64,000 nucleotides of DNA from positions 7,667,427 through 7,731,426 of the forward strand of contig OX459104.1 in NCBI GenBank assembly GCA_949775045.1, in the 5' to 3' direction. The notes beneath the pieces were generated by a model. That model saw only the letters and a list, made by a program, of their open reading frames with translations. It was not told the origin of the DNA and ran no database searches. The position numbers and the translations under genes were made by a program. Below, one piece after another: positions 12,177 through 54,235 of the stretch. Positions within the stretch are counted from its first letter, which is position 1; each line of letters begins with the position of its first letter. This DNA is from Metridium senile. Lineage: Eukaryota > Cnidaria > Anthozoa > Actiniaria > Metridiidae.

Positions 12177-12187
12177 TTCCTCCATAG
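12177..12187 (+). promoter_or_regulatory. Possible 3' splice site in the 5' UTR of the giant gene
   Basis: A pyrimidine-rich run ending TTTCCTCCATAG lies 30 bp before the ATG at 12218. It would allow a non-coding first exon nearer the CRE/TATA motif at 11.9 kb, leaving the whole visible reading frame in one exon. Confidence 0.35.
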
Positions 12188-12217: not shown

Positions 12218-15200
12218 ATGGAGTCAAACGATCGTTTCCAAAATCTCACTCTAAACGATGATGGTGTCAATGTTGTTTTCCATAATGGTCTTACTCCTTT
12301 AATGGACGCTATACTCGATAGTGACAATGAACGTTCATTGAGACTAATTGTTGGTGGTGCGGATGTAAATATATCTGATAATCATGGAAAAACTGCTTTA
12401 ATGTTAGCAGCCGAACATAACAACAAAGATATCGTAAAACTGTTGATAGAAAAGGGTGCAGGAATCAATGTATCTGATGAAGATGGATGGACTGCTTTAA
12501 TGTTTGCAGCCGAACACAGCAACAACGAAATCTCAAAACTGTTAATAGAAAAGGGTGCAGAAATCAATGTATCTGATACTTCTGGCCAGACTGCTTTAAT
12601 GTTTGCAGCCGAACATAACAACAAAGAGATCGCAAAACTGTTGATAGAAAAGGGTGCAGAAATCAATGTATCTTATGAAGATGGATGGACAGCTTTAATG
12701 TTTGCAGCCGTAAACAACAACGAACAGATTGCAAAACTGTTGATAAAAAAGGGTGCAGAAATCAATGTATCTGATGAAGATGGAAAGACTGCTTTAATGT
12801 TTGCAGCCGTAAACAACAACGAAAAGATCGCAAAACTGTTGGTAAAAAAGGGTGCACAAATCAATGTATCTGATGAAGATGGACGGACTGCTTTAATGGT
12901 TGCATCCGAACACAGCAACAACGAAATCTCAAAACTGTTAATAGAAAAGGGTGCAGAAATCAATGTATCTGATACTTCTGGCCAGACTCCTTTAATGTTT
13001 GCAGCCGAACATAACAACAAAAAGATCGCAAAACTGTTGATAGAAAAGGGTGCAGGAATCAATGTATCTGATGAAGATGGATGGACTGCTTTAATGTTTG
13101 CAGCCGAACACAGCAACAACGAAATCTCAAAACTGTTAATAGAAAAGGGTGCAGAAATCAATGTATCTGATACTTCTGGCCAGACTGCTTTAATGTTTGC
13201 AGCCGAACATAACAACAAAGAGATCGCAAAACTGTTGATAGAAAAAGGTGCAGAAATCAATGTATCTGATGAAGATGGATGGACAGCTTTAATGTTTGCA
13301 GCCGTAAACAACAACGAACAGATCGCAAAACTGTTTATAAAAAAGGGTGCAGAAATCAATGTATCTGATGAAGATGGAAAGACTGCTTTAATGTTTGCAG
13401 CCGAACACAGCAACAACGAAATCTCAAAACTGTTAATAGAAAAGGGTGCAGAAATCAATGTATCTGATACTTCTGGCCAGACTGCTTTAATGTTTGCAGC
13501 CGAACATAACAACAAAGAGATCGCAAAACTGTTGATAGAAAAAGGTGCAGAAATCAATGTATCTGATGAAGATGGATGGACAGCTTTAATGTTTGCAGCC
13601 GTAAACAACAACGAACAGATCGCAAAACTGTTTATAAAAAAGGGTGCAGAAATCAATGTATCTGATGAAGATGGAAAGACTGCTTTAATGTTTGCAGCCG
13701 AACATAACAACAAAGAGATCGCAAAACTGTTGATAGAAAAGGGTGCAGAAATCAATGTATCTGATGAAGATGGATGGACAGCTTTAATGGTTGCATCCGA
13801 ACACAGCAACAACGAAATCTCAAAACTGTTAATAGAAAAGGGTGCAGAAATCAATGTATCTGATACTTCTGGCCAGACTGCTTTAATGTTTGCAGCCGAA
13901 CATAACAACAAAGAGATCGCAAAACTGTTGATAGAAAAAGGTGCAGAAATCAATGTATCTGATGAAGATGGATGGACAGCTTTAATGTTTGCAGCCGTAA
14001 ACAACAACGAACAGATCGCAAAACTGTTTATAAAAAAGGGTGCAGAAATCAATGTATCTGATGAAGATGGAAAGACTGCTTTAATGTTTGCAGCCGAACA
14101 TAACAACAAAGAGATCGCAAAACTGTTGATAGAAAAGGGTGCAGAAATCAATGTATCTGATGAAGATGGATGGACAGCTTTAATGGTTGCATCCGAACAC
14201 AGCAACAACGAAATCTCAAAACTGTTAATAGAAAAGGGTGCAGAAATCAATGTATCTGATACTTCTGGCCAGACTGCTTTAATGTTTGCAGCCGAACATA
14301 ACAACAAAGAGATCGCAAAACTGTTGATAGAAAAAGGTGCAGAAATCAATGTATCTGATGAAGATGGATGGACAGCTTTAATGTTTGCAGCCGTAAACAA
14401 CAACGAACAGATCGCAAAACTGTTTATAAAAAAGGGTGCAGAAATCAATGTATCTGATGAAGATGGAAAGACTGCTTTAATGTTTGCAGCCGAACATAAC
14501 AACAAAGAGATCGCAAAACTGTTGATAGAAAAGGGTGCAGAAATCAATGTATCTGATGAAGATGGATGGACAGCTTTAATGGTTGCATCCGAACACAGCA
14601 ACAACGAAATCTCAAAACTGTTAATAGAAAAGGGTGCAGAAATCAATGTATCTGATACTTTTGACCAGACTGCTTTAATGTTTGCAGCCGAACATAACAA
14701 CAAAAAGATCGCAAAACTGTTGATAGAAAAGGGTGCAGAAATCAATGTATCTGATACTTCTGGCCAGACTCCTTTAATGTTTGCAGCCGTAAACAACAAC
14801 GAAGAGATCGCAAAACTGTTGATAGAAAAGGGTGCAGAAATCAATGTATCTGATATTCATGGAAAGACTGCTTTAATGTTTGCAGCCGTAAACAACAACA
14901 AAGAAATCTCAAAACTGTTAATAGAAAAGGGTGCAGAAATCAATGTATCTGATACTTCTGGCCAGACTCCTTTAATGTTTGCAGCCGTAAACAACAACGA
15001 ACAGATCGCAAAACTGTTGATAGAAAAGGGTGCAGCAATCAATGTATCTGATATTCATGGAAAGACTGCTTTAATGTTTGCAGCCGTAAACAACAACAAA
15101 GAGATCGCAAAACTGTTGATAGAAAAGGGTGTAGAAATCAATGTATCTGATACTTCTGGCCAGACTCCTTTAATGTTTGCAGCCGAACATAACAACAAAA

Positions 15201-18200
15201 AGATCGCAAAACTGTTGATAGAAAAAGGTGCAGAAATCAATGTATTTAATGAATATGGACGGACTGCTTTAATGGTTGCATCCGAACACAGCAACAAAGA
15301 AATATCAAAACTGTTAATAGAAAAGGGTGCAGAAATCAATGTATCTGATACTTCTGGCCAGACTCCTTTAATGTTTGCAGCCGAACAAACCCAACAAGAG
15401 ATCGCAAAACTGTTGATAGAAAAGGGTGCAGAAATCAATGTATCTGATATTCATGGAAAGACTACTTTAATGGTTGCATCCGAACACAGCAACAACGAAA
15501 TCTCAAAACTGTTAATAGAAAAGGGTGTAGAAATCAATGTATCTGATACTTCTGGCCAGACTCCTTTAATGTTTGCAGCCGAACATAACAACAAAAAGAT
15601 CGCAAAACTGTTGATAGAAAAAGGTGCAGAAATCAATGTATTTAATGAATATGGACGGACTGCTTTAATGGTTGCATCCAAACAAGGCAACAAAGAAATC
15701 TCAAAACTGTTAATAGAAAAGTGTGCAGAAATCAATGTATCTGATACTTCTGGCCAGACTGCTTTAATGTTTGCAGCCGAACATAACAACAAAGAGATCG
15801 TAAAACTGTTGATAGAAAAGGGTGCAGAAATCAATGTATCTGATACTTCTGGCCAGACTCCTTTAATGTTTGCAGCCGAACATAACAACGAAGAGATCGC
15901 AAAACTGTTAATAGAAAAGGGTGCAGAAATCAATGTATCTGATACTTCTGGCCAGACTCCTTTAATGTTTGCATCCGTAAAAACCGACGAAGATATCGCA
16001 AAACTGTTGATAGAAAAGGGTGCAGAAATCAATGTATCTGATACTTCTGGCCAGACTCCTTTAATGTTTGCAGCCGAACATAACAACAAAGAGATCGCAA
16101 AACTGTTGATAGAAAAGGGTGCAGAAATCAATGTATCTGATACTTCTGGCCAGACTCCTTTAATGTTTGCAGCCGAACATAACAACGAAGAGATCGCAAA
16201 ACTGTTGATAAAAAAGGGTGCAGAAATCAATGTATCTAATGAAGATGGATGGACTGCTTTAATGTTTGCAGCCGAACATAACAACGAAGAGATCGCAAAA
16301 CTGTTGATAGAAAAGGGTGCAGAAATCAATGTATCTGATGAAGATGGATGGACTGCTTTAATGTTTGCAGCCGTAAACAACAACGAACAGATCGCAAAAC
16401 TGTTGATAAAAAAGGGCGCAGAAATCAATGTATCTGATGAAGATGGAAAGACTGCTTTAATGTTTGCAGCCGTAAACGACAACGAACAGATCACAAAGCT
16501 GTTGATAGAAAAGGGTGCAGAAATCAATGTATCTGATAAGTTTGGCCACACTGCTTTAATGTTTGCAACCGAACATAACCACGAAGAGATCGCAAAACTG
16601 TTGATAGAAAAGGGTGCAGAAATCAATGTATCTAATGAATATGGACGGACTGCTTTAATGTTTGCAACCGAACACAGCAACAAAGAGATCGCAAAACTGT
16701 TAATAGAAAAGGGTGCAGAAATCAATGTATCTGATACTTCTGGCCGGACTGCTTTAATGTTTGCAGCCGAACATAACAACAAAGAGATCGCAAAACTGTT
16801 GATAGAAAAGGGTGCAGAAATCAATGTATCTTATGAAGATGGATGGACAGCTTTAATGTTTGCAGCCGTAAACAACAACGAACAGATTGCAAAACTGTTG
16901 ATAAAAAAGGGTGCAGAAATCAATGTATCTGATGAAGATGGAAAGACTGCTTTAATGTTTGCAGCCGTAAACAACAACGAAAAGATCGCAAAACTGTTGG
17001 TAAAAAAGGGTGCACAAATCAATGTATCTGATGAAGATGGACGGACTGCTTTAATGGTTGCATCCGAACACAGCAACAACGAAATCTCAAAACTGTTAAT
17101 AGAAAAGGGTGCAGAAATCAATGTATCTGATACTTCTGGCCAGACTCCTTTAATGTTTGCAGCCGAACATAACAACAAAAAGATCGCAAAACTGTTGATA
17201 GAAAAGGGTGCAGGAATCAATGTATCTGATGAAGATGGATGGACTGCTTTAATGTTTGCAGCCGAACACAGCAACAACGAAATCTCAAAACTGTTAATAG
17301 AAAAGGGTGCAGAAATCAATGTATCTGATACTTCTGGCCAGACTGCTTTAATGTTTGCAGCCGAACATAACAACAAAGAGATCGCAAAACTGTTGATAGA
17401 AAAAGGTGCAGAAATCAATGTATCTGATGAAGATGGATGGACAGCTTTAATGTTTGCAGCCGTAAACAACAACGAACAGATCGCAAAACTGTTTATAAAA
17501 AAGGGTGCAGAAATCAATGTATCTGATGAAGATGGAAAGACTGCTTTAATGTTTGCAGCCGAACACAGCAACAACGAAATCTCAAAACTGTTAATAGAAA
17601 AGGGTGCAGAAATCAATGTATCTGATACTTCTGGCCAGACTGCTTTAATGTTTGCAGCCGAACATAACAACAAAGAGATCGCAAAACTGTTGATAGAAAA
17701 AGGTGCAGAAATCAATGTATCTGATGAAGATGGATGGACAGCTTTAATGTTTGCAGCCGTAAACAACAACGAACAGATCGCAAAACTGTTTATAAAAAAG
17801 GGTGCAGAAATCAATGTATCTGATGAAGATGGAAAGACTGCTTTAATGTTTGCAGCCGAACATAACAACAAAGAGATCGCAAAACTGTTGATAGAAAAGG
17901 GTGCAGAAATCAATGTATCTGATGAAGATGGATGGACAGCTTTAATGGTTGCATCCGAACACAGCAACAACGAAATCTCAAAACTGTTAATAGAAAAGGG
18001 TGCAGAAATCAATGTATCTGATACTTCTGGCCAGACTGCTTTAATGTTTGCAGCCGAACATAACAACAAAGAGATCGCAAAACTGTTGATAGAAAAAGGT
18101 GCAGAAATCAATGTATCTGATGAAGATGGATGGACAGCTTTAATGTTTGCAGCCGTAAACAACAACGAACAGATCGCAAAACTGTTTATAAAAAAGGGTG

Positions 18201-21200
18201 CAGAAATCAATGTATCTGATGAAGATGGAAAGACTGCTTTAATGTTTGCAGCCGAACATAACAACAAAGAGATCGCAAAACTGTTGATAGAAAAGGGTGC
18301 AGAAATCAATGTATCTGATGAAGATGGATGGACAGCTTTAATGGTTGCATCCGAACACAGCAACAACGAAATCTCAAAACTGTTAATAGAAAAGGGTGCA
18401 GAAATCAATGTATCTGATACTTCTGGCCAGACTGCTTTAATGTTTGCAGCCGAACATAACAACAAAGAGATCGCAAAACTGTTGATAGAAAAAGGTGCAG
18501 AAATCAATGTATCTGATGAAGATGGATGGACAGCTTTAATGTTTGCAGCCGTAAACAACAACGAACAGATCGCAAAACTGTTTATAAAAAAGGGTGCAGA
18601 AATCAATGTATCTGATGAAGATGGAAAGACTGCTTTAATGTTTGCAGCCGAACATAACAACAAAGAGATCGCAAAACTGTTGATAGAAAAGGGTGCAGAA
18701 ATCAATGTATCTGATGAAGATGGATGGACAGCTTTAATGGTTGCATCCGAACACAGCAACAACGAAATCTCAAAACTGTTAATAGAAAAGGGTGCAGAAA
18801 TCAATGTATCTGATACTTTTGACCAGACTGCTTTAATGTTTGCAGCCGAACATAACAACAAAGAGATCGCAAAACTGTTGATAGAAAAAGGTGCAGAAAT
18901 CAATGTATCTGATGAAGATGGATGGACAGCTTTAATGTTTGCAGCCGTAAACAACAACGAACAGATCGCAAAACTGTTTATAAAAAAGGGTGCAGAAATC
19001 AATGTATCTGATGAAGATGGAAAGACTGCTTTAATGTTTGCAGCCGAACATAACAACAAAGAGATCGCAAAACTGTTGATAGAAAAGGGTGCAGAAATCA
19101 ATGTATCTGATGAAGATGGATGGACAGCTTTAATGGTTGCATCCGAACACAGCAACAACGAAATCTCAAAACTGTTAATAGAAAAGGGTGCAGAAATCAA
19201 TGTATCTGATACTTTTGACCAGACTGCTTTAATGTTTGCAGCCGAACATAACAACAAAAAGATCGCAAAACTGTTGATAGAAAAGGGTGCAGAAATCAAT
19301 GTATCTGATACTTCTGGCCAGACTCCTTTAATGTTTGCAGCCGTAAACAACAACGAAGAGATCGCAAAACTGTTGATAGAAAAGGGTGCAGAAATCAATG
19401 TATCTGATATTCATGGAAAGACTGCTTTAATGTTTGCAGCCGTAAACAACAACAAAGAAATCTCAAAACTGTTAATAGAAAAGGGTGCAGAAATCAATGT
19501 ATCTGATACTTCTGGCCAGACTCCTTTAATGTTTGCAGCCGTAAACAACAACGAACAGATCGCAAAACTGTTGATAGAAAAGGGTGCAGCAATCAATGTA
19601 TCTGATATTCATGGAAAGACTGCTTTAATGTTTGCAGCCGTAAACAACAACAAAGAGATCGCAAAACTGTTGATAGAAAAGGGTGTAGAAATCAATGTAT
19701 CTGATACTTCTGGCCAGACTCCTTTAATGTTTGCAGCCGAACATAACAACAAAAAGATCGCAAAACTGTTGATAGAAAAAGGTGCAGAAATCAATGTATT
19801 TAATGAATATGGACGGACTGCTTTAATGGTTGCATCCGAACACAGCAACAAAGAAATATCAAAACTGTTAATAGAAAAGGGTGCAGAAATCAATGTATCT
19901 GATACTTCTGGCCAGACTCCTTTAATGTTTGCAGCCGAACAAACCCAACAAGAGATCGCAAAACTGTTGATAGAAAAGGGTGCAGAAATCAATGTATCTG
20001 ATATTCATGGAAAGACTACTTTAATGGTTGCATCCGAACACAGCAACAACGAAATCTCAAAACTGTTAATAGAAAAGGGTGTAGAAATCAATGTATCTGA
20101 TACTTCTGGCCAGACTCCTTTAATGTTTGCAGCCGAACATAACAACAAAAAGATCGCAAAACTGTTGATAGAAAAAGGTGCAGAAATCAATGTATTTAAT
20201 GAATATGGACGGACTGCTTTAATGGTTGCATCCAAACAAGGCAACAAAGAAATCTCAAAACTGTTAATAGAAAAGTGTGCAGAAATCAATGTATCTGATA
20301 CTTCTGGCCAGACTGCTTTAATGTTTGCAGCCGAACATAACAACAAAGAGATCGTAAAACTGTTGATAGAAAAGGGTGCAGAAATCAATGTATCTGATAC
20401 TTCTGGCCAGACTCCTTTAATGTTTGCAGCCGAACATAACAACGAAGAGATCGCAAAACTGTTAATAGAAAAGGGTGCAGAAATCAATGTATCTGATACT
20501 TCTGGCCAGACTCCTTTAATGTTTGCATCCGTAAAAACCGACGAAGATATCGCAAAACTGTTGATAGAAAAGGGTGCAGAAATCAATGTATCTGATACTT
20601 CTGGCCAGACTCCTTTAATGTTTGCAGCCGAACATAACAACAAAGAGATCGCAAAACTGTTGATAGAAAAGGGTGCAGAAATCAATGTATCTGATACTTC
20701 TGGCCAGACTCCTTTAATGTTTGCAGCCGAACATAACAACGAAGAGATCGCAAAACTGTTGATAAAAAAGGGTGCAGAAATCAATGTATCTAATGAAGAT
20801 GGATGGACTGCTTTAATGTTTGCAGCCGAACATAACAACGAAGAGATCGCAAAACTGTTGATAGAAAAGGGTGCAGAAATCAATGTATCTGATGAAGATG
20901 GATGGACTGCTTTAATGTTTGCAGCCGTAAACAACAACGAACAGATCGCAAAACTGTTGATAAAAAAGGGCGCAGAAATCAATGTATCTGATGAAGATGG
21001 AAAGACTGCTTTAATGTTTGCAGCCGTAAACGACAACGAACAGATCACAAAGCTGTTGATAGAAAAGGGTGCAGAAATCAATGTATCTGATAAGTTTGGC
21101 CACACTGCTTTAATGTTTGCAACCGAACATAACCACGAAGAGATCGCAAAACTGTTGATAGAAAAGGGTGCAGAAATCAATGTATCTAATGAATATGGAC

Positions 21201-24200
21201 GGACTGCTTTAATGTTTGCAACCGAACACAGCAACAAAGAGATCGCAAAACTGTTAATAGAAAAGGGTGCAGAAATCAATGTATCTGATACTTCTGGCCG
21301 GACTGCTTTAATGTTTGCAGCCGTAAACGACAACGAACAGATCTCAAAACTGTTGATAGAAAAGGGTGCAGAAATCAATGTATCTGATATTCATGGAAAC
21401 ACTGCTCTAATGTTTGCAGCCGTAAACAACAACGAACAGATCGCAAAACTGTTGATAGAAAAGGGTGCAGAAATCAATGTATCTGATACTTCTGGACAGA
21501 CTCTTTTAATGTTTGCAGCCGAACATAACAACAAAAAGATCGCAAAACTGTTGATAGAAAAGGGTGCAGAAATCAATGTATCTAATGAATATGGACGGAC
21601 TGCTTTAATGGTTGCATCCGAACACAGCAACAAAGAAATCTCAAAACTGTTAATAGAAAAGGGTGCAGAAATCAATGTATCTGATAAATCTGGCCAGACT
21701 CCTTTAATGTTTGCAGCCGTAAAAACCGACGAAGATATCGCAAAACTGTTGATAGAAAAGGGTGCAGAAATCAATGTATCTAATGAATATGGCCAGACTC
21801 CTTTAATGTTTGCAGCCGAACATAACAACGAAGAGATCGCAAAACTGTTGATAGAAAAGGGTGCAGAAATCAATGTATCTAATGAATATGGCCAGACTCC
21901 TTTAATGTTTGCAGCCGAACATAACAACGAAGAGATCGCAAAACTGTTGATAGAAAAGGGTGCAGAAATCAATGTATCTAATGAAGATGGATGGACTGCT
22001 TTAATGTTTGCAGCCGAACATAACAACAAAGAGATCGCAAAACTGTTGATAGAAAAGGGTGCAGAAATCAATGTATCTGATACTTCTGGCCAGACTCCTT
22101 TAATGTTTGCAGCCGAACATAACAACGAAGAGATCGCAAAACTGTTAATAGAAAAGGGTGCAGAAATCAATGTATCTGATACTTCTGGCCAGACTCCTTT
22201 AATGTTTGCAGCCGTAAAAACCGACGAAGATATCGCAAAACCGTTGATAGAAAAGGGTGCAGAAATCAATGTATCTGATACTTATGGCCAGACTCCTTTA
22301 ATGTTTGCAGCCGAACATAACAACAAAGAGATCGCAAAACTGTTGATAGAAAAGGGTGCAGAAATCAATGTATCTGATACTTCTGGCCAGACTCCTTTAA
22401 TGTTTGCAGCCGAACATAACAACGAAGAGATCGCAAAACTGTTGATAAAAAAGGGTGCAGAAATCAATGTATCTAATGAAGATGGATGGACTGCTTTAAT
22501 GTTTGCAGCCGAACATAACAACAAAGAGATCGCAAAACTGTTGATAGAAAAGGGTGCAGAAATCAATGTATCTAATGAAGATGGATGGACTGCTTTAATG
22601 TTTGCAGCCGTAATTAACAACGAACAGATCGCAAAACTGTTGATAAAAAAGGGCGCAGAAATCAATGTATCTGATGAAGATGGAAAGACTGCTTTAATGT
22701 TTGCAGCCGTAAACGACAACGAACAGATCACAAAACTGTTGATAGAAAAGGGTGCAGAAATCAATGTATCTGATATTCATGGAAAGACTGCTTTAATGTT
22801 TGCAGCCGTAAACAACAACAAAGAGATCGCAAAACTGTTAATTGAAAAGGGTGCACAAATCAATGTATCTGATGAAGATGGACGGACTGCTTTAATGGTT
22901 GCATCCGAACACAGCAACAACGAAGAGTTCGCAAAGCTGTTGATAGAAAAGGGTGCAGAAATCAATGTATCTGATATTGTTGGCCAGACTCCATTACTCT
23001 ATGCAACCAAACATAACAACGAAGAGATCGCAAAACTGTTGATTGAAAAGGATGCAGAAATCAATGTATCTGATAAGTTTGGCCACACTGCTTTAATGTT
23101 TGCAACCGAACATAACCACGAAGAGATCGCAAAACTGTTGATAGAAAAGGGTGCAGAAATCAATGTATCTAATGAATATGGACGGACTGCTTTAATGTTT
23201 GCAACCGAACACAGCAACAAAGAGATCGCAAAACTGTTTATAGAAAAGGGTGCAGAAATCAATGTATCTGATACTTCTGGCTTGACTGCTTTAATGTTTG
23301 CAGCCGTAAACGACAACGAACAGATCGCAAAACTGTTGATAGAAAAGGGTGCAGAAATCAATGTATCTGATATTCATGGAAAGACTGCTTTAATGTTTGC
23401 AGCCGTAAACAACAACGAACAGATCGCAAAACTGTTGATAGAAAAGGGTGCAGAAATCAATGTTACTGATACTTCTGGACAGACTCTTTTAATGTTTGCA
23501 GCCGAACATAACAACAAAAAGATCGCAAAACTGTTGATAGAAAAGGGTGCAGAAATCAATGTATCTAATGAATATGGACGGACTGCTTTAATGGTTGCAT
23601 CCGAACACAGCAACAAAGAAATCTCAAAACTGTTTATAGAAAAGGGTGCAGAAATCAATGTATCTGATACTTCTGGCCGGACTGCTTTAATGTTTGTAGC
23701 CGTAAACGACAACGAACAGATCGCAAAACTGTTAATAGAAAAGGGTGCAGAAATCAATGTATCTGATATTCATGGAAAGACTGCTTTAATGTTTGCAGCC
23801 GTAAACAACAACGAACAGATCGCAAAACTGTTGATAGAAAAGGGTGCAGAAATCAATGTATCTGATATTCATGGAAAGACTGCTTTAATGGTTGCAGACG
23901 AAAACAACAACAAAGATATCTCAAAACTGTTAATAGAAAAGGGTGCAGAAATCAATGTATCTGATGAAGATGGATGGACTATTTTAATGTTTGCAGCCAA
24001 AAACAACAACGAACAGATCGCAAAACTGTTGATAAAAAAGGGTGCAGAGGTCAATGTATTGAATCGATATGGACGGACTGCTTTAATGTTTGCAGCCGTA
24101 GAAACCGACGAAGATATCGCAAAACTGTTAATAGAAAAGGGTGCAGAAATCAATCTATTTGATCAATATGGACGGACTGCTTTAATGTTTGCAGCCGAAC

Positions 24201-27200
24201 ATAACAACGAACAGATCGCAAAACTGTTGATAGAAAAGGGTGCAGAAGTCAATCTAATTGATCAATATGGACGGACTGCTTTAATGTTTGCAGCCGTAAG
24301 CAACAACGAAGAGATCGCAAAACTGTTGATAGAACATGGTGCAGATATCAATGTATCTCATAATGATGGCCAGACTTCATTACTCTATGCAGCCAAACAT
24401 AACAACGAAGAGATCGCAAGGCTGGTGATTGAAAAGGGTGCAGAAATCAATGTATCTGATAATGATGGCCAGACTTCATTACTCTATGCAACCGAACATA
24501 ACAACGAAGAGTTCGCAAAGCTGTTGATAGAAAAGGGTGCAGAAATCAATGTATCTGATATTGTTGGCCAGACTCCATTACTCTATGCAACCAAACATAA
24601 CAACGAAGAGATCGCAAAACTGTTGATTGAAAAGGATGCAGAAATAAATGTATCCGATAAGTTTGGCCACACTGCTTTAATGTTTGCAGCCGAACATAAC
24701 AACCAAGAGATCGCAAAACTGTTGATAGAAAAGGGTGCAGAAATCAATGTATCTGATATTGTTGGCCAGACTCCATTACTCTATGCAACCAAACATAACA
24801 ACGAAGAGATCGCAAAACTGTTGACTGAAAAGGATGCAGAAATCAATGTATCCGATAATGATGGCCAGACTTCATTACTCTATGCAGCCAAACATAACAA
24901 CGAAGAGATCGCAAAACTGTTGATAGAAAAGGGTGCAAAAATCAATGTATCTGATAAGTTTGGCAAGACTGCTTTAATGTTTGCAGCCGAACATAACAAC
25001 CAAGAGATCGCAAAATTGTTGATAGAAAAGGGTGCTGATGGAAAATCTGCTTTGTTCCTGGCTGCTTTTAATAACAGTGAAGAAGTAGCACACTTATTGC
25101 TGAATTCGGGGATTGATGCCAACAGTGTAGACGAATATGGTCAAACGGCTTTGTTTGCTGCTGTAACAAGTGAACATGATGATCAGTCAACAGACTTATG
25201 TGACGAAATGGAGTGGATAGAAACCGAAGCCAATCAAATTATCAGCGATGATCAAACGAACTTTGATAGAAGACAGAGCAGCATAACTCGTGCATTGGTT
25301 CAAGCTTGTAATGATGTTAATATTAAAGATGGCAAAGGAAAAACGGCTTTGTTCTATGCAATCGAACACAATAAAGAAACGTTGGTACGCATACTTGTTG
25401 ATGCTGGTGCGGATGTTAACATAAAAGATACCAATGGACAAACTCCGTTATTTTATGCTGTCAAATATAGTAGTGATTCTATGGTGGGCTTTTTAATCGA
25501 TTCTAGCGCTGACGTCCATTCAAGAAACAGTAACCACGAAACCGCCCTGTTCAATGCTGTAAGGTACAACAATACGGAGGTGATCGAACTGTTAGTTGAT
25601 CACCATGACGCTGACGTAAATGCAAGAAACGTATTCGGCAAAACACCAATGTTTTATGCAATTACTTCAGAATTTGCAAAACAAACAGCTTGTCTACTTC
25701 TTGATAAAGGGGCAAAAATAAATGATACAGATAGATGTGATCTCAGCGTGCTGTCATTTTATATAGAACATCAATGTAATAACTTCACATTTGACAATTA
25801 TCAAATGGAAATACTTGATATATTCACAGACAATGGGATACCGAGGTGCAAAGTGTTCACTTCTACAATCAACATAATGTACAGTACATTTCCATGTTAT
25901 TTAAACAGCTTATTACAGCGTGATAGTCAAAAATATGCAACAAAATTATTAACAATTGCAAAAAGCTATGCCCACAATGATGAGCAAAAGAGATTGATTA
26001 AGATGTTGGAAAAGCATCTTACTTATGAACATCTAAAAGATAAGTTTCTAGAGTTGCTTGATGTCCTGATTCAGCTTGGTGCAAACCCAAACAGTGTTGA
26101 TACATACGGGAACACTGCACTTCATAATACCGTTCAAATTCCTTTCTTTCTCATTTCAGAAGAGTTCATAATGAAAATTGTGTTACAGCTAGAAAACCAC
26201 AGAGCGAGATTCGACATTGAAAATCACCAAGGTCAAACACCACTTATGTTTTTCCTGTCTTCTTGGCATCGTGATAACATCAACTGGCTTAACGTTAGTA
26301 CATTTAAGGCAGTTTGTAGAAATTTCCTGAAACGTGCCTCACCTATCCGACAAATCGCAACAAGAAGTGGAGAGTCCGTGTTCCATTTATTGATGAAACT
26401 CTTCCAAACAGTGCTTAGTATAGATGATATACAAAGGCGAGAGAGAGTTCTTAACGGAATGGTTGAGATTTTGAAACTATTCTGTCCACCAGACATTGTT
26501 AAAGGAGTAACGGTCAACAAGGCAGATGACGATTTGAAATCTCCTCTTCATCTTTGGGCTTCGCTTTCTCTTGCATCCAATGATGATTATGTCAACAGCA
26601 TATCAGGGGAATCAGGGGAATTAACCTTTGAAAAATTCATGAAAACTATTTTCAACATTCTTCTTGATTGTGGGGTGATGCTCAACGCAAGAGACAGCAA
26701 AGACCGAACACCTCTTCATTACTGCAGAACGTGGTGTGCCGTTAAGTGTTTAGTAAAAGCTGGCGCAAAGCGAAATGATGACGACTCGAGAGGAAGAACT
26801 CCTCTTTTAGCTGCTGCACACAAAAGTGTCTTCATGAGGAATACAGAACATTTCTTTTCCGATGTCACAGACGACCCTAAATCGTTTTTCACAAGATGTG
26901 TTAAGTTGGATCTTGATCTTTGGGCTTGTGATAAAGAAGGTGAATCTGTTTTAAGCTTGCTGTTGGCATCAGAAGCCTTTTTACTTGCTGAAGCTTTAGT
27001 CGAGGTTGCATGCGAATCCAATTCATCAGTTTTGGAGCAGCTTCTGACGGTTATTTGTCAAGATAAGTCAACACACACCTTCTGGAAGTGTCAGTTGGTT
27101 CAAACGATTTTAACATGCAGATCTATGCCGCTGAAGATCAATCTCAATCCAGCACTTCGAAGTTGCTGTCTTCTCATTACCAAGGAATTGCATGAGAAAG

Positions 27201-28918
27201 AGAGAGGAGTAACATTAGAGAAGGAGAAGGAGGATTACGACGAGCCACCAACGAAAAAGGTGAGAACTGATGACTCAAGTGGATGTAGAGAAGACTGGCT
27301 AGACTCGTCATCTGCATCTGTCCATTTAGAAATTGCAAGACAACTGCGGATAAATGGAGCCAAAGGCAAAGCTTTGTGTGCAGACTTCCCCCAACTCAAT
27401 ACACTTCTGACAGGAGAAATTGATAGGTCTAAAGCCCCAATGATAATCCCATGGACATCATATTCTAAGAGGCACAAATCTAGACTTGCAGAAGTTGCAA
27501 GGCGACAGAACGTGGACAAAATCGGGACTTCCTGGTTCCACAAAGAGCATATTGGTGGAGGATCATTTGGTCATGTGTTTGCTGGAATCAACGAGAAAGA
27601 CGGAAGGGAGATTGCCATTAAGAAAATTGACAAGCTTCGTATGGTACGTCCCGAAGATAAACGAGAGATTAGAAATCTCACAGCTTTGGCAGATTGTGAG
27701 CAAGTAGTTACTTACATCTATTATATTGATAGCGATGACAGCTTTGCATACATTGTTTTAGAACTGATGGAAGGGCATCTTGATGAATATTTTAACGACG
27801 ATATTTTCGACCCACATCAAAGTTATTCGCTTTGCAAAGATGTGGTTATGGGACTTAAATTTTTGCACAATCTCAATCCAAATCCCATTCTTCATCGTGA
27901 TCTCAAACCAGACAACATTCTTTACAAGGTTCATCCCAAGATTTGTCTGAAGATCGCCGACTTTGGCCTTAGCAGCCCTCTGACTACTACTGGTACTACT
28001 GTCCTTGGAACTAACGTTGGTACACGATGTTGGATTGACCCCGAGGTGATCAATTCAGATCCATATCAGCACTCGATGGCATCTGACAACTATACTTGTG
28101 GACTTCTGCTCCACTATATTTTGTCAGTGCAAAAGCATCCATTCAGTCCAGCCGATTGTTCCAAGAAAACAAAAGAAAATAACGATCGTCAAACTCAAAA
28201 CAACATGATGGACAACGCAATGAAGGGTTGGGATAATAACCTTTCTCCAGAGGCCACACACCTTATTAAAGGTCTTTTGTCAAGCAATGTAGCTAAGCGA
28301 CCGTCTGCTGCTGATTCATTATCTCATCCCTTGTTTTGGACCAAGCAGAAAAAGATGACACTTTTAACTGCTGTTGGAAACCAACCAGAAGTCGGATGTC
28401 CACTTCCAGCCTATGGTCCTTTGGATGAAGTCGAATCGGAATTAGAGGCGGAATTCTCAAAAATAGTACAACATTCCACATGGGATGATGCTAAGTTCAC
28501 GTACATGCCTAGTATTTACACCGAAATGACCAAACCTATCGTAAAAGGAAAAGTTCATCCACTTAAACCAAAAGGAAAAAATCCTCTATTTAAACCAAGA
28601 CGGTATAAAACTGGATCGGTGGTAGAGTTAATTCGCTTTATCAGGAACTCCATCGCTCACGTATCTGATGCTAGCAGACCAACTGTTATCAAAAAACAAA
28701 TCCTTCAAAATGCGGTGTTTCTGGACTACTTCCCACACCTTGTCATAGAAGTCTTTAAGATCGTCTGCAAACACGGATGGGATACAAGAGAAGAAATCAA
28801 GCATGCAATGTCAAGTGATGAATGTAAGTTGTCTGTTTACACATATATCCATTCACTCGTCCATTCACTGATTTTTTCATTCGTTCATTTACACATCCAT
28901 TCATTCTTGTATTCTTGA
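12218..28918 (+). CDS. Giant ankyrin-repeat / protein kinase / KEN-endoribonuclease protein (RNase L-like architecture)
   Basis: The frame is open for 5,566 codons; the ATG follows TTTCAAG. Residues ~18-4272 are about 129 ankyrin repeats of 33 residues (TALMFAAEHNNKEIAKLLIE type). About 4272-4960 holds more diverged ankyrin repeats and linker, and a basic KKVR patch lies near 5010. The kinase domain spans ~5104-5371: Gly-loop GGGSFGHV, VAIK-type Lys5135, HRDLKPDN from 5226, DFG Asp5248. The SHPLFW phrase is typical of the kinase/KEN junction in IRE1 and RNase L. The KEN domain spans ~5372-5535 with the Arg-x4-His pair at R5476/H5481, matching the catalytic Arg and His of RNase L and IRE1. In these families the kinase part drives dimerisation and KEN cleaves RNA. 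Ankyrins replace the transmembrane lumenal sensor of IRE1, so a soluble protein is inferred. The last ~30 codons run into TTCA repeats; a GTAAGT donor at 28824 probably ends the exon earlier. The ligand is unknown. Confidence 0.88.
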   Translation: MESNDRFQNLTLNDDGVNVVFHNGLTPLMDAILDSDNERSLRLIVGGADVNISDNHGKTALMLAAEHNNKDIVKLLIEKGAGINVSDEDGWTALMFAAEHSNNEISKLLIEKGAEINVSDTSGQTALMFAAEHNNKEIAKLLIEKGAEINVSYEDGWTALMFAAVNNNEQIAKLLIKKGAEINVSDEDGKTALMFAAVNNNEKIAKLLVKKGAQINVSDEDGRTALMVASEHSNNEISKLLIEKGAEINVSDTSGQTPLMFAAEHNNKKIAKLLIEKGAGINVSDEDGWTALMFAAEHSNNEISKLLIEKGAEINVSDTSGQTALMFAAEHNNKEIAKLLIEKGAEINVSDEDGWTALMFAAVNNNEQIAKLFIKKGAEINVSDEDGKTALMFAAEHSNNEISKLLIEKGAEINVSDTSGQTALMFAAEHNNKEIAKLLIEKGAEINVSDEDGWTALMFAAVNNNEQIAKLFIKKGAEINVSDEDGKTALMFAAEHNNKEIAKLLIEKGAEINVSDEDGWTALMVASEHSNNEISKLLIEKGAEINVSDTSGQTALMFAAEHNNKEIAKLLIEKGAEINVSDEDGWTALMFAAVNNNEQIAKLFIKKGAEINVSDEDGKTALMFAAEHNNKEIAKLLIEKGAEINVSDEDGWTALMVASEHSNNEISKLLIEKGAEINVSDTSGQTALMFAAEHNNKEIAKLLIEKGAEINVSDEDGWTALMFAAVNNNEQIAKLFIKKGAEINVSDEDGKTALMFAAEHNNKEIAKLLIEKGAEINVSDEDGWTALMVASEHSNNEISKLLIEKGAEINVSDTFDQTALMFAAEHNNKKIAKLLIEKGAEINVSDTSGQTPLMFAAVNNNEEIAKLLIEKGAEINVSDIHGKTALMFAAVNNNKEISKLLIEKGAEINVSDTSGQTPLMFAAVNNNEQIAKLLIEKGAAINVSDIHGKTALMFAAVNNNKEIAKLLIEKGVEINVSDTSGQTPLMFAAEHNNKKIAKLLIEKGAEINVFNEYGRTALMVASEHSNKEISKLLIEKGAEINVSDTSGQTPLMFAAEQTQQEIAKLLIEKGAEINVSDIHGKTTLMVASEHSNNEISKLLIEKGVEINVSDTSGQTPLMFAAEHNNKKIAKLLIEKGAEINVFNEYGRTALMVASKQGNKEISKLLIEKCAEINVSDTSGQTALMFAAEHNNKEIVKLLIEKGAEINVSDTSGQTPLMFAAEHNNEEIAKLLIEKGAEINVSDTSGQTPLMFASVKTDEDIAKLLIEKGAEINVSDTSGQTPLMFAAEHNNKEIAKLLIEKGAEINVSDTSGQTPLMFAAEHNNEEIAKLLIKKGAEINVSNEDGWTALMFAAEHNNEEIAKLLIEKGAEINVSDEDGWTALMFAAVNNNEQIAKLLIKKGAEINVSDEDGKTALMFAAVNDNEQITKLLIEKGAEINVSDKFGHTALMFATEHNHEEIAKLLIEKGAEINVSNEYGRTALMFATEHSNKEIAKLLIEKGAEINVSDTSGRTALMFAAEHNNKEIAKLLIEKGAEINVSYEDGWTALMFAAVNNNEQIAKLLIKKGAEINVSDEDGKTALMFAAVNNNEKIAKLLVKKGAQINVSDEDGRTALMVASEHSNNEISKLLIEKGAEINVSDTSGQTPLMFAAEHNNKKIAKLLIEKGAGINVSDEDGWTALMFAAEHSNNEISKLLIEKGAEINVSDTSGQTALMFAAEHNNKEIAKLLIEKGAEINVSDEDGWTALMFAAVNNNEQIAKLFIKKGAEINVSDEDGKTALMFAAEHSNNEISKLLIEKGAEINVSDTSGQTALMFAAEHNNKEIAKLLIEKGAEINVSDEDGWTALMFAAVNNNEQIAKLFIKKGAEINVSDEDGKTALMFAAEHNNKEIAKLLIEKGAEINVSDEDGWTALMVASEHSNNEISKLLIEKGAEINVSDTSGQTALMFAAEHNNKEIAKLLIEKGAEINVSDEDGWTALMFAAVNNNEQIAKLFIKKGAEINVSDEDGKTALMFAAEHNNKEIAKLLIEKGAEINVSDEDGWTALMVASEHSNNEISKLLIEKGAEINVSDTSGQTALMFAAEHNNKEIAKLLIEKGAEINVSDEDGWTALMFAAVNNNEQIAKLFIKKGAEINVSDEDGKTALMFAAEHNNKEIAKLLIEKGAEINVSDEDGWTALMVASEHSNNEISKLLIEKGAEINVSDTFDQTALMFAAEHNNKEIAKLLIEKGAEINVSDEDGWTALMFAAVNNNEQIAKLFIKKGAEINVSDEDGKTALMFAAEHNNKEIAKLLIEKGAEINVSDEDGWTALMVASEHSNNEISKLLIEKGAEINVSDTFDQTALMFAAEHNNKKIAKLLIEKGAEINVSDTSGQTPLMFAAVNNNEEIAKLLIEKGAEINVSDIHGKTALMFAAVNNNKEISKLLIEKGAEINVSDTSGQTPLMFAAVNNNEQIAKLLIEKGAAINVSDIHGKTALMFAAVNNNKEIAKLLIEKGVEINVSDTSGQTPLMFAAEHNNKKIAKLLIEKGAEINVFNEYGRTALMVASEHSNKEISKLLIEKGAEINVSDTSGQTPLMFAAEQTQQEIAKLLIEKGAEINVSDIHGKTTLMVASEHSNNEISKLLIEKGVEINVSDTSGQTPLMFAAEHNNKKIAKLLIEKGAEINVFNEYGRTALMVASKQGNKEISKLLIEKCAEINVSDTSGQTALMFAAEHNNKEIVKLLIEKGAEINVSDTSGQTPLMFAAEHNNEEIAKLLIEKGAEINVSDTSGQTPLMFASVKTDEDIAKLLIEKGAEINVSDTSGQTPLMFAAEHNNKEIAKLLIEKGAEINVSDTSGQTPLMFAAEHNNEEIAKLLIKKGAEINVSNEDGWTALMFAAEHNNEEIAKLLIEKGAEINVSDEDGWTALMFAAVNNNEQIAKLLIKKGAEINVSDEDGKTALMFAAVNDNEQITKLLIEKGAEINVSDKFGHTALMFATEHNHEEIAKLLIEKGAEINVSNEYGRTALMFATEHSNKEIAKLLIEKGAEINVSDTSGRTALMFAAVNDNEQISKLLIEKGAEINVSDIHGNTALMFAAVNNNEQIAKLLIEKGAEINVSDTSGQTLLMFAAEHNNKKIAKLLIEKGAEINVSNEYGRTALMVASEHSNKEISKLLIEKGAEINVSDKSGQTPLMFAAVKTDEDIAKLLIEKGAEINVSNEYGQTPLMFAAEHNNEEIAKLLIEKGAEINVSNEYGQTPLMFAAEHNNEEIAKLLIEKGAEINVSNEDGWTALMFAAEHNNKEIAKLLIEKGAEINVSDTSGQTPLMFAAEHNNEEIAKLLIEKGAEINVSDTSGQTPLMFAAVKTDEDIAKPLIEKGAEINVSDTYGQTPLMFAAEHNNKEIAKLLIEKGAEINVSDTSGQTPLMFAAEHNNEEIAKLLIKKGAEINVSNEDGWTALMFAAEHNNKEIAKLLIEKGAEINVSNEDGWTALMFAAVINNEQIAKLLIKKGAEINVSDEDGKTALMFAAVNDNEQITKLLIEKGAEINVSDIHGKTALMFAAVNNNKEIAKLLIEKGAQINVSDEDGRTALMVASEHSNNEEFAKLLIEKGAEINVSDIVGQTPLLYATKHNNEEIAKLLIEKDAEINVSDKFGHTALMFATEHNHEEIAKLLIEKGAEINVSNEYGRTALMFATEHSNKEIAKLFIEKGAEINVSDTSGLTALMFAAVNDNEQIAKLLIEKGAEINVSDIHGKTALMFAAVNNNEQIAKLLIEKGAEINVTDTSGQTLLMFAAEHNNKKIAKLLIEKGAEINVSNEYGRTALMVASEHSNKEISKLFIEKGAEINVSDTSGRTALMFVAVNDNEQIAKLLIEKGAEINVSDIHGKTALMFAAVNNNEQIAKLLIEKGAEINVSDIHGKTALMVADENNNKDISKLLIEKGAEINVSDEDGWTILMFAAKNNNEQIAKLLIKKGAEVNVLNRYGRTALMFAAVETDEDIAKLLIEKGAEINLFDQYGRTALMFAAEHNNEQIAKLLIEKGAEVNLIDQYGRTALMFAAVSNNEEIAKLLIEHGADINVSHNDGQTSLLYAAKHNNEEIARLVIEKGAEINVSDNDGQTSLLYATEHNNEEFAKLLIEKGAEINVSDIVGQTPLLYATKHNNEEIAKLLIEKDAEINVSDKFGHTALMFAAEHNNQEIAKLLIEKGAEINVSDIVGQTPLLYATKHNNEEIAKLLTEKDAEINVSDNDGQTSLLYAAKHNNEEIAKLLIEKGAKINVSDKFGKTALMFAAEHNNQEIAKLLIEKGADGKSALFLAAFNNSEEVAHLLLNSGIDANSVDEYGQTALFAAVTSEHDDQSTDLCDEMEWIETEANQIISDDQTNFDRRQSSITRALVQACNDVNIKDGKGKTALFYAIEHNKETLVRILVDAGADVNIKDTNGQTPLFYAVKYSSDSMVGFLIDSSADVHSRNSNHETALFNAVRYNNTEVIELLVDHHDADVNARNVFGKTPMFYAITSEFAKQTACLLLDKGAKINDTDRCDLSVLSFYIEHQCNNFTFDNYQMEILDIFTDNGIPRCKVFTSTINIMYSTFPCYLNSLLQRDSQKYATKLLTIAKSYAHNDEQKRLIKMLEKHLTYEHLKDKFLELLDVLIQLGANPNSVDTYGNTALHNTVQIPFFLISEEFIMKIVLQLENHRARFDIENHQGQTPLMFFLSSWHRDNINWLNVSTFKAVCRNFLKRASPIRQIATRSGESVFHLLMKLFQTVLSIDDIQRRERVLNGMVEILKLFCPPDIVKGVTVNKADDDLKSPLHLWASLSLASNDDYVNSISGESGELTFEKFMKTIFNILLDCGVMLNARDSKDRTPLHYCRTWCAVKCLVKAGAKRNDDDSRGRTPLLAAAHKSVFMRNTEHFFSDVTDDPKSFFTRCVKLDLDLWACDKEGESVLSLLLASEAFLLAEALVEVACESNSSVLEQLLTVICQDKSTHTFWKCQLVQTILTCRSMPLKINLNPALRSCCLLITKELHEKERGVTLEKEKEDYDEPPTKKVRTDDSSGCREDWLDSSSASVHLEIARQLRINGAKGKALCADFPQLNTLLTGEIDRSKAPMIIPWTSYSKRHKSRLAEVARRQNVDKIGTSWFHKEHIGGGSFGHVFAGINEKDGREIAIKKIDKLRMVRPEDKREIRNLTALADCEQVVTYIYYIDSDDSFAYIVLELMEGHLDEYFNDDIFDPHQSYSLCKDVVMGLKFLHNLNPNPILHRDLKPDNILYKVHPKICLKIADFGLSSPLTTTGTTVLGTNVGTRCWIDPEVINSDPYQHSMASDNYTCGLLLHYILSVQKHPFSPADCSKKTKENNDRQTQNNMMDNAMKGWDNNLSPEATHLIKGLLSSNVAKRPSAADSLSHPLFWTKQKKMTLLTAVGNQPEVGCPLPAYGPLDEVESELEAEFSKIVQHSTWDDAKFTYMPSIYTEMTKPIVKGKVHPLKPKGKNPLFKPRRYKTGSVVELIRFIRNSIAHVSDASRPTVIKKQILQNAVFLDYFPHLVIEVFKIVCKHGWDTREEIKHAMSSDECKLSVYTYIHSLVHSLIFSFVHLHIHSFLYS
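13560..14690 (+). repeat. 396-bp (four-ankyrin) higher-order repeat, 3 tandem units
   Basis: Four successive ankyrins (DEDGW..LFIKKG, DEDGK, DEDGW..MVASEHSN, DTSGQ) repeat as a block with a 396-bp period, three times in the first large copy. The block ends with a DTFDQ variant at ~14,655. The equivalent block in the second copy has four units. Confidence 0.85.
17720..19245 (+). repeat. 396-bp higher-order repeat, 4 tandem units
   Basis: Equivalent of the block at 13,560-14,690, with one extra unit. The DTFDQ variant appears twice here (near 18,813 and 19,209) against once in the first copy, so the extra unit was gained at the 3' end of the block after, or during, the larger duplication. Confidence 0.85.
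28824..28829 (+). promoter_or_regulatory. Probable 5' splice site ending the giant exon
   Basis: GTAAGT interrupts the frame after the KEN domain, at phase 1. Downstream the frame enters TTCA repeats and encodes His/Ser/Phe-rich filler. Candidate acceptors TGTATGTGTAG at 29528 and at about 32,090 are in the duplicated 3' flank. Joining to either would create a stop codon at the junction, because the first exon bases are AA or GA after the phase-1 T. The protein would then end just after the KEN domain. Confidence 0.5.
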
Positions 28919-29460: not shown

Positions 29461-29740
29461 CCATATAAACATTTATAGAATATGCGCTATATAAATTGAT
29501 TATTGATTCATGATATTTGTATGTGTAGAAAGGCACAATATCTGGATGGGACAGCTACTCTCATTGATGGTACTACAGACTATCAAGACTTCAGAAGGAC
29601 ATATTAAAGCCATACATGTGATACGAAATCATCATAATAGCTAAGACGAACAACACATGTCATATAAAAACATCTTAAAGCCAAGTTAACCGATGTATAA
29701 TCTCAATATTCTACAAATTGATAACCGACGCATAATTAAA

Positions 29741-30011
29741 CACTAAACTTTGGTAGTATTTGTTATCAATTAGTAGAATTTGTTATTTGTTATCAATTAG
29801 TAGAATTAGTAGAATATTGAAATAGAGGGATTTCATGGCAGTCATGTTTGTGGGCAAGTACAAAAGAAAGTTTTTGAATGACAAAGGATTTCATTTCTCT
29901 TGAAAGGAAAGCACCATTGTTTTGACCACAAACATGGTTGCCATGAAATCCCTCTATTTCAATATTCTACTAATTCTACTAATTGATAACAAATACTACC
30001 AAAGTTTAGTG
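29741..30011. mobile_element. Palindromic MITE with ~85-bp inverted arms
   Basis: The left arm begins CACTAAACTTTGGTAGTA and contains GAAATAGAGGGATTTCATGG; the right arm carries the complements and ends CAAAGTTTAGTG. A shorter copy sits in the second segmental duplicate at 32,304-32,478, so the element predates the duplication. Confidence 0.7.
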
Positions 30012-30411
30012 TAGACGCTGAATTGAAGAATCGGTTGCAGGTTCTGAATTAATCATAGAACATATAAGATAAGATCGCAAAGATACCTGGGAAAGCATTA
30101 AATTGTTCAGTAATATCGTATATTTGTAATGTATTTCCTGAGTATTTGTAGAGTTTCAAATCAGAGAGATTATTTCTTTGGATAAAATTCCATGTGTTTT
30201 ACTGACTACATAAAACTTACATACAGCTGATTTGCTACTTATCCATACATCCTAGCGGTCTTGTATGTTCTATGACTTCTAACGACAACGATTCTTCAAT
30301 TCGGTGTAAAAGTGTATATAATTTTAAGCATGGCCGACATGTAATAAATGTGTTTTGCATTTCTTGATATAGTTATTACAGTATAGTAATATAGACAAAC
30401 ATTTGATTTCA

Positions 30412-40173: not shown

Positions 40174-40791
40174 ATGTGCTGTTTATCGTCCATCAAAAAC
40201 TGGGAAGTCACCGCTAAAGCTGGCCAAATGGACAAATATTACTTCATTCGAATACAAAAGCATTTTGGTTGTTCTTCTCCGTTTGACCTTTACGTTAACA
40301 ACCAACCTATTTCAAAACAACTACCTCTGAAAAATTACTCGCCGTTTTATCGACTTCGAGGACAATTCGGCTGGGAACAAGATAACAACAATTTTCTTCT
40401 TGTTCGAGATTCATTACTCTTTGCGGCCTTTTCGCAGAAATACAGATTATTTGTCAACAAGTTTGATACTGAGAGTGGCCTTGAGTTCTCCGAGTTTTGG
40501 AAACATAGAGGCTGGCAGCATTTATTTGTAGGAGTTGGTTTGATAACTTTATGTGTTGGTTTAAGCCTTATTGTTAGCCATGTTGGACAAAGTTCGTTTC
40601 TCCTCTGGATGGATATAGTACTAGCAGTCTTGGCTGTCGTTTTCATGTTGTTTGGAGTGTTTTTAATCATGTACAAACACAACAGATCTGGGGATATTTA
40701 CATTGTTGGAAACTCCGAAATAAACGAAGGATTTGAACACGAAGTGGGAAATCACAATATTGCGGAAGCAACTGCTACTAGCAACTGTTGA
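40174..40791 (+). CDS. Uncharacterised membrane protein with two C-terminal TM segments (205 codons)
   Basis: Not recognised. The frame is open from an ATG at 40,174 to TGA at 40,791. Residues 1-112 form a hydrophilic, aromatic-rich N-terminal domain, with YYFIRIQKHFG and a GQFGWEQDNNNFLLVRD segment. Two strongly hydrophobic stretches follow at about residues 115-137 and 143-167, separated by a short Ser/Gln turn, then a ~38-residue polar tail (YKHNRSGDIYIVGN). Both ends would lie on the same side of the membrane; cytosolic is likely, since no signal peptide is seen. Codon use and the balanced domain layout make a real gene plausible. It could be the last exon of a longer gene or a retrocopy, because no introns are visible. 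Confidence 0.6.
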   Translation: MCCLSSIKNWEVTAKAGQMDKYYFIRIQKHFGCSSPFDLYVNNQPISKQLPLKNYSPFYRLRGQFGWEQDNNNFLLVRDSLLFAAFSQKYRLFVNKFDTESGLEFSEFWKHRGWQHLFVGVGLITLCVGLSLIVSHVGQSSFLLWMDIVLAVLAVVFMLFGVFLIMYKHNRSGDIYIVGNSEINEGFEHEVGNHNIAEATATSNC

Positions 40792-49337: not shown

Positions 49338-49592
49338 ATGGCGACAATTGCGAATTTTGGCGGAGAAATTGAGCATTTCGACATGGACGCCGATAAGTCA
49401 AGTTTAGCGGCAAGATGGCTTGAATGGAAATCGTCCGCTAGTTATATGATTAAGGCAAAAGGAATTACGACTCCAGCACAAAAGAGGCGACACTGTTACA
49501 CACAGCTGGAAGGAAGCTGCAAAAAGTCTACGAAACTCTACCAGAACCGACCGGATTGCCGGATGATGCAAATGTTTTCGATAAAGCAATAG
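49338..49592 (+). pseudogene. Gypsy gag N-terminus, frameshifted
   Basis: ATG at 49,338 opens gag (MATIANFGGEIEHFDMD..). Around 49,485 the sensible gag reading moves to the neighbouring frame, as shown by gag-like sequence resuming there and continuing into the main frame below. A single-base indel would explain it. The codons after the shift in this frame are nonsense. Confidence 0.75.
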
Positions 49593-51585: not shown

Positions 51586-52759
51586 AGTAGATATGGAATG
51601 CCGATTCTACAACAATAGGCTCCGGCGGAGCCGCCGGAGCGACCGAGAAACAAAGGAAATTCCTGATATTTCAAATTCCTAAGCATGCGTCGAACAAAAG
51701 AAGACGCGGCGTCCTTTTGCAGAACAAAGGAAATTCTCGACTCTAGGATTAAATGTGGCGTCCTATTTCGCTAAACAAAAGAAATTCTTCATATCTAAAA
51801 CTCCTAAGCGTCATTTTTAAAATTCCTTTAATAATAGCGGTTTTTCTAACTACAAACATGCGCGTCACCAAATGCAAATCTTTTGTGTTTAGTTCATTGA
51901 CAAAAGAAATGCTTGATATTGAAGTCAACAAACAAAAATTGTGTTATATCAGTATTTCTTACTGATAGAACACGAGAACGACGGCCATTTAATAGCTTTT
52001 TTTTTTTTTGTGATATTTATTATGATAATGTGTTTTTACAGTCTTGGCGCGTGCCGCGTCACCACCTGCAAATCTATTGTTTAGTTCATAGACAAAAGAA
52101 TTTCTTGTTTTTGAAGTAAAATTGCAATGCTTGCCTATAAATCGAGAAATAAACAAACAAAATTATGGCGTTAGATATTCCTTACTGATATAACAAAAAT
52201 AGACTACGCAGTTCTTTCTTTTTAAACAATAATAAGTGTGCCGAATTAAACAATAACACATCGTAACTAGGTATAGTCAATTAAAGGTTGAATAAGTACA
52301 TTTGTAAACATTGAGTAATTCAACGGGTTTTATTAGCTTTTCTTAATTAAACTTTAACTAACCTTAAAGTTAAAACTTTTAAAACAGTTTTTGCGATTAG
52401 TTTTTGGAGCAATTACTAATCTTACTGATATAACAAGAGAACGAAGAACTTCTTACTTTTCAAACACTAATATTATAATAATGAGTTTGTACAATTAGTC
52501 TGGGCGCGTGCCTATTGTTTAACTTATCCTTGTACATGCTTTGTTTGTTTATCAAATTTAAATCATTAAATGAGTTTGAGCAGTTTGTATTCTATATATA
52601 ATGCTCTATAACTTTTAACATATCCGATAATTGAAAGTATCCATTATATTTCTTCGACTGGCTTTTCTTCCGACTGCGTTAAGTCTGTCAGCCTCGTAGA
52701 GGCATATCTTGTCATGATGAAAATATTATATATTCTGCAAACCAAAGTGGGTTCATAGC

Positions 52760-53071: not shown

Positions 53072-53145
53072 GTTGATACTTTGACGTTCTCTTGGAAAAG
53101 ACGACGTTTACCCCAAATGTTCACATTTATCGAGGTTTAAGGCAA

Positions 53146-53250
53146 GGATGAGCAGGACAAAACCCAGGATGAGCAGGACAAAACCCAGGATGATGAGGAC
53201 AAACCCAGGATGATGAGGACAAACCCAGGATGACAAGGACAAACGGGATT
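53146..53250. repeat. ~22-bp minisatellite, five units (left arm)
   Basis: Units GATGAGCAGGACAAAACCCAG / GATGATGAGGACAAACCCAG lie just upstream of the left-arm zinc-finger gene. The mirror set is at 54,236-54,342. Confidence 0.9.
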
Positions 53251-54075: not shown

Positions 54076-54235
54076 TAAATGTTTTTAAAAAGTATGCCAT
54101 ATATGTATGAATAACTCCGTATTTGTATTGGTGGAATCGCGGGGCAAGTCTGGGGATGTTGACAAACTCAAAGAGAAAACTGCAATGTCAGCACAATAGG
54201 CTAGGGGAATACACAACAAGTTGAATTTAATCCCG

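Follow-up and report, generated by a model that had tools for sequence, protein, structure and literature searches.

The window analysed here, a 64,000-nt stretch of Metridium senile DNA, carries on its forward strand one giant gene whose open frame runs for 5,566 codons, while the other five frames across 12218-28918 contain 489, 384, 257, 77 and 251 stops. Ankyrin repeats, a protein kinase domain and a KEN endoribonuclease domain follow one another in this frame, with Pfam matches to the kinase and the KEN domain; the earlier note had read the same order from the letters. The features of the gene are as follows.

12186..12187, + strand: acceptor-like AG, tttcctccatAG, upstream of the start codon (sequence reading)
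12218..28918, + strand: open reading frame of 5,566 codons (stop-free frame)
12218..12277, + strand: conserved N-terminus MESNDRFQNL... (paralogue comparison)
12278..25051, + strand: 129 tandem ankyrin units of 33 residues each, one of 34 (TRF, register scan)
12589..21323, + strand: exact segmental duplication in the array (12589-14704 = 16747-18862; 14269-16769 = 18823-21323; zero mismatches)
25052..27541, + strand: diverged ankyrins and a middle region conserved within the family, mostly helical in the AF2 model
27542..28336, + strand: protein kinase domain (Pfam Pkinase E 7e-49; AIKK, HRDLKPDN and DFG intact; DPE for APE)
28337..28822, + strand: KEN endoribonuclease domain (Pfam match 28583-28777; structure matches)
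28604..28660, + strand: KEN catalytic segment YKTGSVVELIRFIRNSIAH (Y5463, R5476, N5477, H5481)
28824..28829, + strand: probable splice donor GTAAGT (sequence reading; the frame beyond it is read-through of a TTCA-type repeat)

The ATG at 12218 is supported as the real start because a MESND-like N-terminus recurs among the five paralogues compared: L024 and L025 begin with MESNDHFQ, L023 with MESNDRFQ and L019 with MELESNDRFP, while L016 deviates (METNRISLEQ). The acceptor-like AG before the ATG suggests an intron in the 5′ UTR, preceded by a 5′ untranslated exon. At the other end the donor is followed by the TTCA-type repeat, and the longest frames end in ...AMSSE in six of 13 paralogues and in ...AMQE in a seventh; we therefore place the end of the protein near residue 5535, so that the gene probably encodes ~5,535 residues up to a point near 28823, plus a short last exon. 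The remaining paralogue frames end a few residues later (L015), run into a repeat like that of the window (L024), or stop short of the KEN end (four loci). A candidate acceptor for the last exon, guessed by eye, lies near 29535. A single-exon coding sequence for a protein of ~620 kDa had been proposed. The mass computed for residues 1-5534 is 606.7 kDa, and nearly all of the coding part does occupy one exon, although small exons on either side are suggested by the acceptor before the ATG and the 3′ donor. Antisense ORFs at 12673-22269 fall within the repeat array and appear to be no more than its reflection on the other strand. Directly behind the gene is a foldback (29740-30012) with two arm pairs, one of 74 nt and 96% complementary (29784-29857 and 29922-29995), the other of 44 nt and 98% complementary (29740-29783 and 29969-30012).

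Three counts of the array agree with the ~130 repeats first estimated: TRF counts 127.9 copies (99-bp unit, 12368-25035), the register scan 129 units at 33-residue spacing (one of 34, with an extra codon), and a home-made HMM 137 ankyrins at a threshold of at least 5 bits. The units are encoded by 67 distinct DNA units that yield 63 distinct protein units, with 4-unit higher-order repeats. That one whole codon is the sole length change within the 129 units, and the frame is open across 16.7 kb. Framework positions are nearly invariant; variability among distinct units is highest at positions 3, 2, 5, 14, 17, 18, 15 and 13. In an ankyrin binder library the outward-facing positions 2, 3, 5, 10, 13 and 14 were randomised (passage in PMC3308923; the library positions are also treated in a passage of PMC9611651), and here each of the six ranks in the top 12 of the 33 for variability, with variable positions 15, 17 and 18 outside the library set. 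At the eight variable positions pN/pS is 1.03-1.13 and elsewhere 0.61-0.67, a contrast given without a significance test and as description only, because the positions were picked after their entropies were known and the units are not independent. The duplicated block comprises about 42-46 units, and as not one base differs over more than 4 kb, it either arose very recently or was introduced falsely by the assembly; without it the array still has more than 80 units. As a natural, very long and nearly uniform ankyrin solenoid, the array is useful for work on repeat homogenisation and solenoid mechanics.

For the C-terminal part, searches with kinase and KEN HMMs had been proposed as a check. 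Both domains were found, the kinase with the E-value listed above and the KEN domain with Ribonuc_2-5A at E 7.8e-9 (36.2 bits, where the cut-off is 23.3; the match spans positions 50-117 of the 127 in the profile). A KEN-only query of the PDB gave no match up to E 10; a longer query found IRE1, the KEN stretches themselves contributing just 5-7 bits. Comparison of predicted structures with RNase L and IRE1, also proposed, recovered the kinase-KEN module that IRE1 has; RNase L was listed for the longer model and was not among the 50 matches listed for the kinase-KEN model.

The gene does not stand alone and is the extreme member of a multigene family. A profile search with PF06479 across the 389-Mb genome (169 contigs; the window is on contig C10) gave 16 matches: two exons of one IRE1 gene on C5, the window, and 13 further loci. 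Twelve of the 14 non-IRE1 loci are on C10, and six of them, window included, lie on the same strand at 7.42-7.75 Mb. Frames resembling the kinase-KEN part of the window occur at all 13 further loci, and the longest frames at 12 of these hold 7-43 ankyrins (at least 5 bits each); at L028 the longest frame is without ankyrins and kinase-KEN is spread over several frames. Regular 33-residue-spaced runs reach 1-39 units in the paralogues, the maximum being in L024, against 129 in the window. The window copy is thus of one kind with the others and marks the far end of a series of lengths. At L024 (G000:C10:5827500-5837400), the paralogue nearest to it, the frame end runs into a TCCA-type repeat, so a similar repeat lies behind both genes.

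Relatives were also sought in a protein database, where 7,994 candidates were scored and the best 120 of 2,119 matches listed. Among these 120, identity in kinase-KEN is 38-65% and length 720-2,152 residues, against the 5,566 codons of the window frame; these uncharacterised anthozoan ankyrin-kinase-KEN proteins share its architecture and belong to the same family. An invertebrate origin had been proposed, and the genome is indeed that of an animal (an anthozoan), with the nearest proteins by score among those 120 coming from sea anemones, including six Actinostola rows 50-65% identical in kinase-KEN. Species names are attached to 22 of the best 120 of 2,119, in the genera Exaiptasia, Actinostola, Actinia, Dendronephthya and Montipora. 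Dendronephthya is an octocoral, Actinostola, Exaiptasia and Actinia are sea anemones, and Montipora is a stony coral. Since the matches listed include all three groups, the family is spread over Anthozoa. A search among proteins of 3,061-9,740 residues gave 18 matches (24-34% identical over 27-54% of the query) and no family member among them: PF06479 is absent from their listed Pfam matches, which for two of the 18 are listed incompletely, and the named ones are other kinases, e.g. SPEG, twitchin and UNC-89. Sizes of ~2,226-3,061 residues fall between the two searched length ranges. Judged by these comparisons of sequence, the window copy is the largest member found of a sea-anemone and coral ankyrin-kinase-KEN family.

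Conservation was read from an alignment of 126 rows, comprising 115 of the 120 relatives listed, the window protein, eight mammalian RNase L sequences, and human and yeast IRE1; the other five relatives (P0003, P0004, P0019, P0118 and P0121) dropped out by a length limit or a missing match. The catalytic Arg, Asn and His of KEN are all present in the window protein, and of the 109 relatives with all three columns filled, 107 keep the full triad. The kinase motif APE is found in 110 of 115 relatives; the window copy reads DPE, and its kinase could therefore be weakened. By simple counting, with no test applied, dN/dS of the kinase is 0.30-0.42 against eight paralogues (a ninth is saturated), that of the middle region 0.54-0.77 against nine, and that of KEN 0.38-1.08 against eight, the last implying a nuclease part that is weakly constrained or fast-changing.

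One alternative makes the giant copy a by-product: an unstable array would have grown through unequal crossing-over, or been lengthened artificially in the assembly, and the working members of the family would be those of ~10-40 ankyrins. The exact duplication, the 4-unit higher-order repeats, the short regular runs of the paralogues and the DPE motif all fit this, but a 16.7-kb frame whose units differ in length by a single codon, the low dN/dS of the kinase, and the >80 units left when the duplicated block is removed do not, and we consider it unlikely.

The known protein closest in plan is vertebrate RNase L (PDB 4oau, 4o1o), which likewise has ankyrins, a kinase-like domain and KEN in one chain in the same order. 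It has nine ankyrins (R1-R9, in a passage of PMC5927464) against ~130 here, and a pseudokinase (HQDLQPQN and similar, with DFD in 8/8 rows) where the window protein is canonical (HRDLKPDN, DFG). The window protein is 21-23% identical to four mammalian RNase L sequences (the RNase L rows of the alignment are mammals only, eight used from 120 listed of 241). IRE1, which has a separate locus in the genome (L021), shares the kinase-KEN module, as the structure matches indicate, but carries an N-terminal lumenal sensor; in the window protein ankyrins begin at residue 21, behind an N-terminus conserved in paralogues, and the view that the array takes the place of that sensor is upheld. Overall identity is nearer IRE1 in both domains (kinase, 34% to human IRE1 and 24% to RNase L; KEN, 26% and 23%), as could be expected if RNase L has changed fast. 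The KEN motifs, on the other hand, are VGN and FIRN in the window protein, found in 76/113 and 77/109 relatives, respectively, and both common to RNase L, whereas IRE1 has VSD and A[ML]RN (human, yeast and own-genome IRE1 read AMRN or ALRN, and VSD). A tree of 37 rows (including nine of the 13 paralogues, 16 of the 115 aligned relatives, three IRE1 rows, and RNase L from mammals only) sets the three IRE1 rows against RNase L plus the anthozoan family with support 100/94, under a treekit warning that two long branches meet and with the own-genome IRE1 row filled in 31% of columns. Forcing RNase L together with animal IRE1 gave an AU p of 0.032 in the same tree, under the same warning; an earlier tree (60 rows, two IRE1 rows) had the same split at 100/99. 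On the strength of the shared motifs, the tree split and the AU test, a single ancient ankyrin-kinase-KEN fusion is tentatively favoured.

The identical domain order, the two KEN motifs and the tree would also be expected if the protein were a functional counterpart of RNase L, cutting RNA once its ankyrins have bound 2-5A made by an anemone OAS; in that case the OAS-RNase L axis would be older than vertebrates. The nearer overall identity to IRE1 and the long-branch warning count against this, as does, for the regular array, a scan for the binding pocket. The 2-5A pocket of RNase L includes Y135. Others in its ankyrins are W60, K89, F126 and E131 (passage in PMC5927464). The window array is without a K89-type residue: Lys or Arg at position 1, the K89 place, occurs in 0/138 window ankyrin units, and the best of 130 triples has 3/5 pocket residues. 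The control of the same scan recovered the pocket (4/5) in one of eight RNase L rows, and because it failed in the other seven the scan speaks for the regular array only, not for the diverged ankyrins or the paralogues. A look for OAS or cGAS-like genes in the same genome had been advised, and it succeeded for the latter: at least 29 Mab-21 (cGAS-like) matches are listed, counted exon by exon, one with internal stops. Of the 29 listed, the match at G000:C1:4895314 has the longest open frame around it, with 2,409 codons. OAS was not found by Pfam or with human OAS1, searches that had no positive control, so this result is uninformative; in favour of a counterpart, part of PMC6307210 reports OAS in Nematostella, Acropora and Orbicella, and a passage of PMC10732462 covers the history of OAS and cGLRs. 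Taken together, we regard a true RNase L counterpart as quite improbable.

It is hardly credible that the array and kinase-KEN belong to two genes sharing an open frame by chance: several paralogues of the genome, and database relatives too, have both parts in a single frame and in this order, and the MESND..F N-terminus recurs in paralogues; as far as sequence tells, they form one gene, as had been supposed.

Our preferred reading, to which we give a probability of about 0.6, is that the window protein is an RNA-decay receptor built like RNase L, the largest found in an anemone and coral family. Direct support comes from the domain order, the intact catalytic residues of kinase and KEN (with DPE for APE), the predicted kinase-KEN fold, the clustered multigene family, and the variability of the array at outward-facing positions. 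The kinase-KEN modules of RNase L and IRE1 act as dimers or oligomers. Here the ankyrin solenoid would be the sensor, and several molecules would come together when a ligand binds along its length or an inhibitor leaves; the canonical kinase domains would then form dimers, probably with mutual phosphorylation of the IRE1 kind, and the KEN domains would pair and cut cellular and foreign RNA. By analogy, autophosphorylation is suggested because the kinase is canonical, and a cytosolic sensor as in RNase L because ankyrins are present. We infer the cytosolic place, activation by clustering, RNA cleavage and a role in defence; as to the ligand, our guess is a multivalent protein or a nucleotide. 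Variable outward-facing positions and local gene clusters would fit a defence receptor with changing ligands.

More speculatively, anthozoans might run a diversified RNA-decay receptor system. The arrays of its clustered ankyrin-kinase-KEN proteins would gain and lose length and change at the binding face, somewhat as LRR receptors do, and each protein would answer to a ligand of its own, be it a pathogen protein or a nucleotide second messenger produced by OAS or by one of the many cGAS-like enzymes. The ~600-kDa copy with ~130 ankyrins would be its extreme, and RNase L what vertebrates have kept of an ancient animal system; we offer this as a tentative possibility.

Published statements on RNase L outside vertebrates differ. 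A passage of PMC8476169 counts RNase L and OAS1 homologues among the genes detected in the Nematostella poly(I:C) response, whereas one in PMC6307210 gives OAS as present and RNase L as absent in corals and Nematostella; neither passage mentions ankyrin-kinase-KEN proteins. Elsewhere, in the passages concerned, RNase L is named as a vertebrate gene only (PMC13319465), Aplysia is said to be without OAS1 and RNase L (PMC9334734), and KEN is described as occurring with kinase and, in some proteins, ankyrin repeats, with expansions in Oikopleura and monocots (PMC3710099). Neither the expanded anthozoan family nor a giant array turned up in our literature searches on invertebrate and cnidarian ankyrin-kinase-KEN proteins. 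Within the reach of these searches the earlier note's 'undescribed' is borne out for the giant array, but an RNase L homologue in Nematostella is in print in the passage of PMC8476169 cited above. The gene opens a test of whether RNA-destroying defence of the RNase L kind is older than vertebrates: with its intact nuclease residues and many copies, the anthozoan family is a candidate executor through which a laboratory anemone can serve to test directly how old OAS-RNase L-type defence is.

Elsewhere in the window, an ORF of 205 aa at 40174-40791 (+) is membrane-like by eye and has sub-threshold Pfam matches only. A Ty3-type retroelement occupies 49454-57613 (+), with zinc knuckle, protease and reverse transcriptase at 49454-51682 and RNase H and integrase at 55709-57613, the two halves being separated by ~4 kb of other sequence. 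Within that ~4 kb lies an element at 53000-54479 whose inverted arms, 53000-53378 and 54101-54479, match perfectly over at least 379 bp and may extend further, since 53000 was the starting point of the search. It encloses a 202-aa frame without Pfam match (53476-54084, −) and looks like a DNA transposon nested in the Ty3 element.
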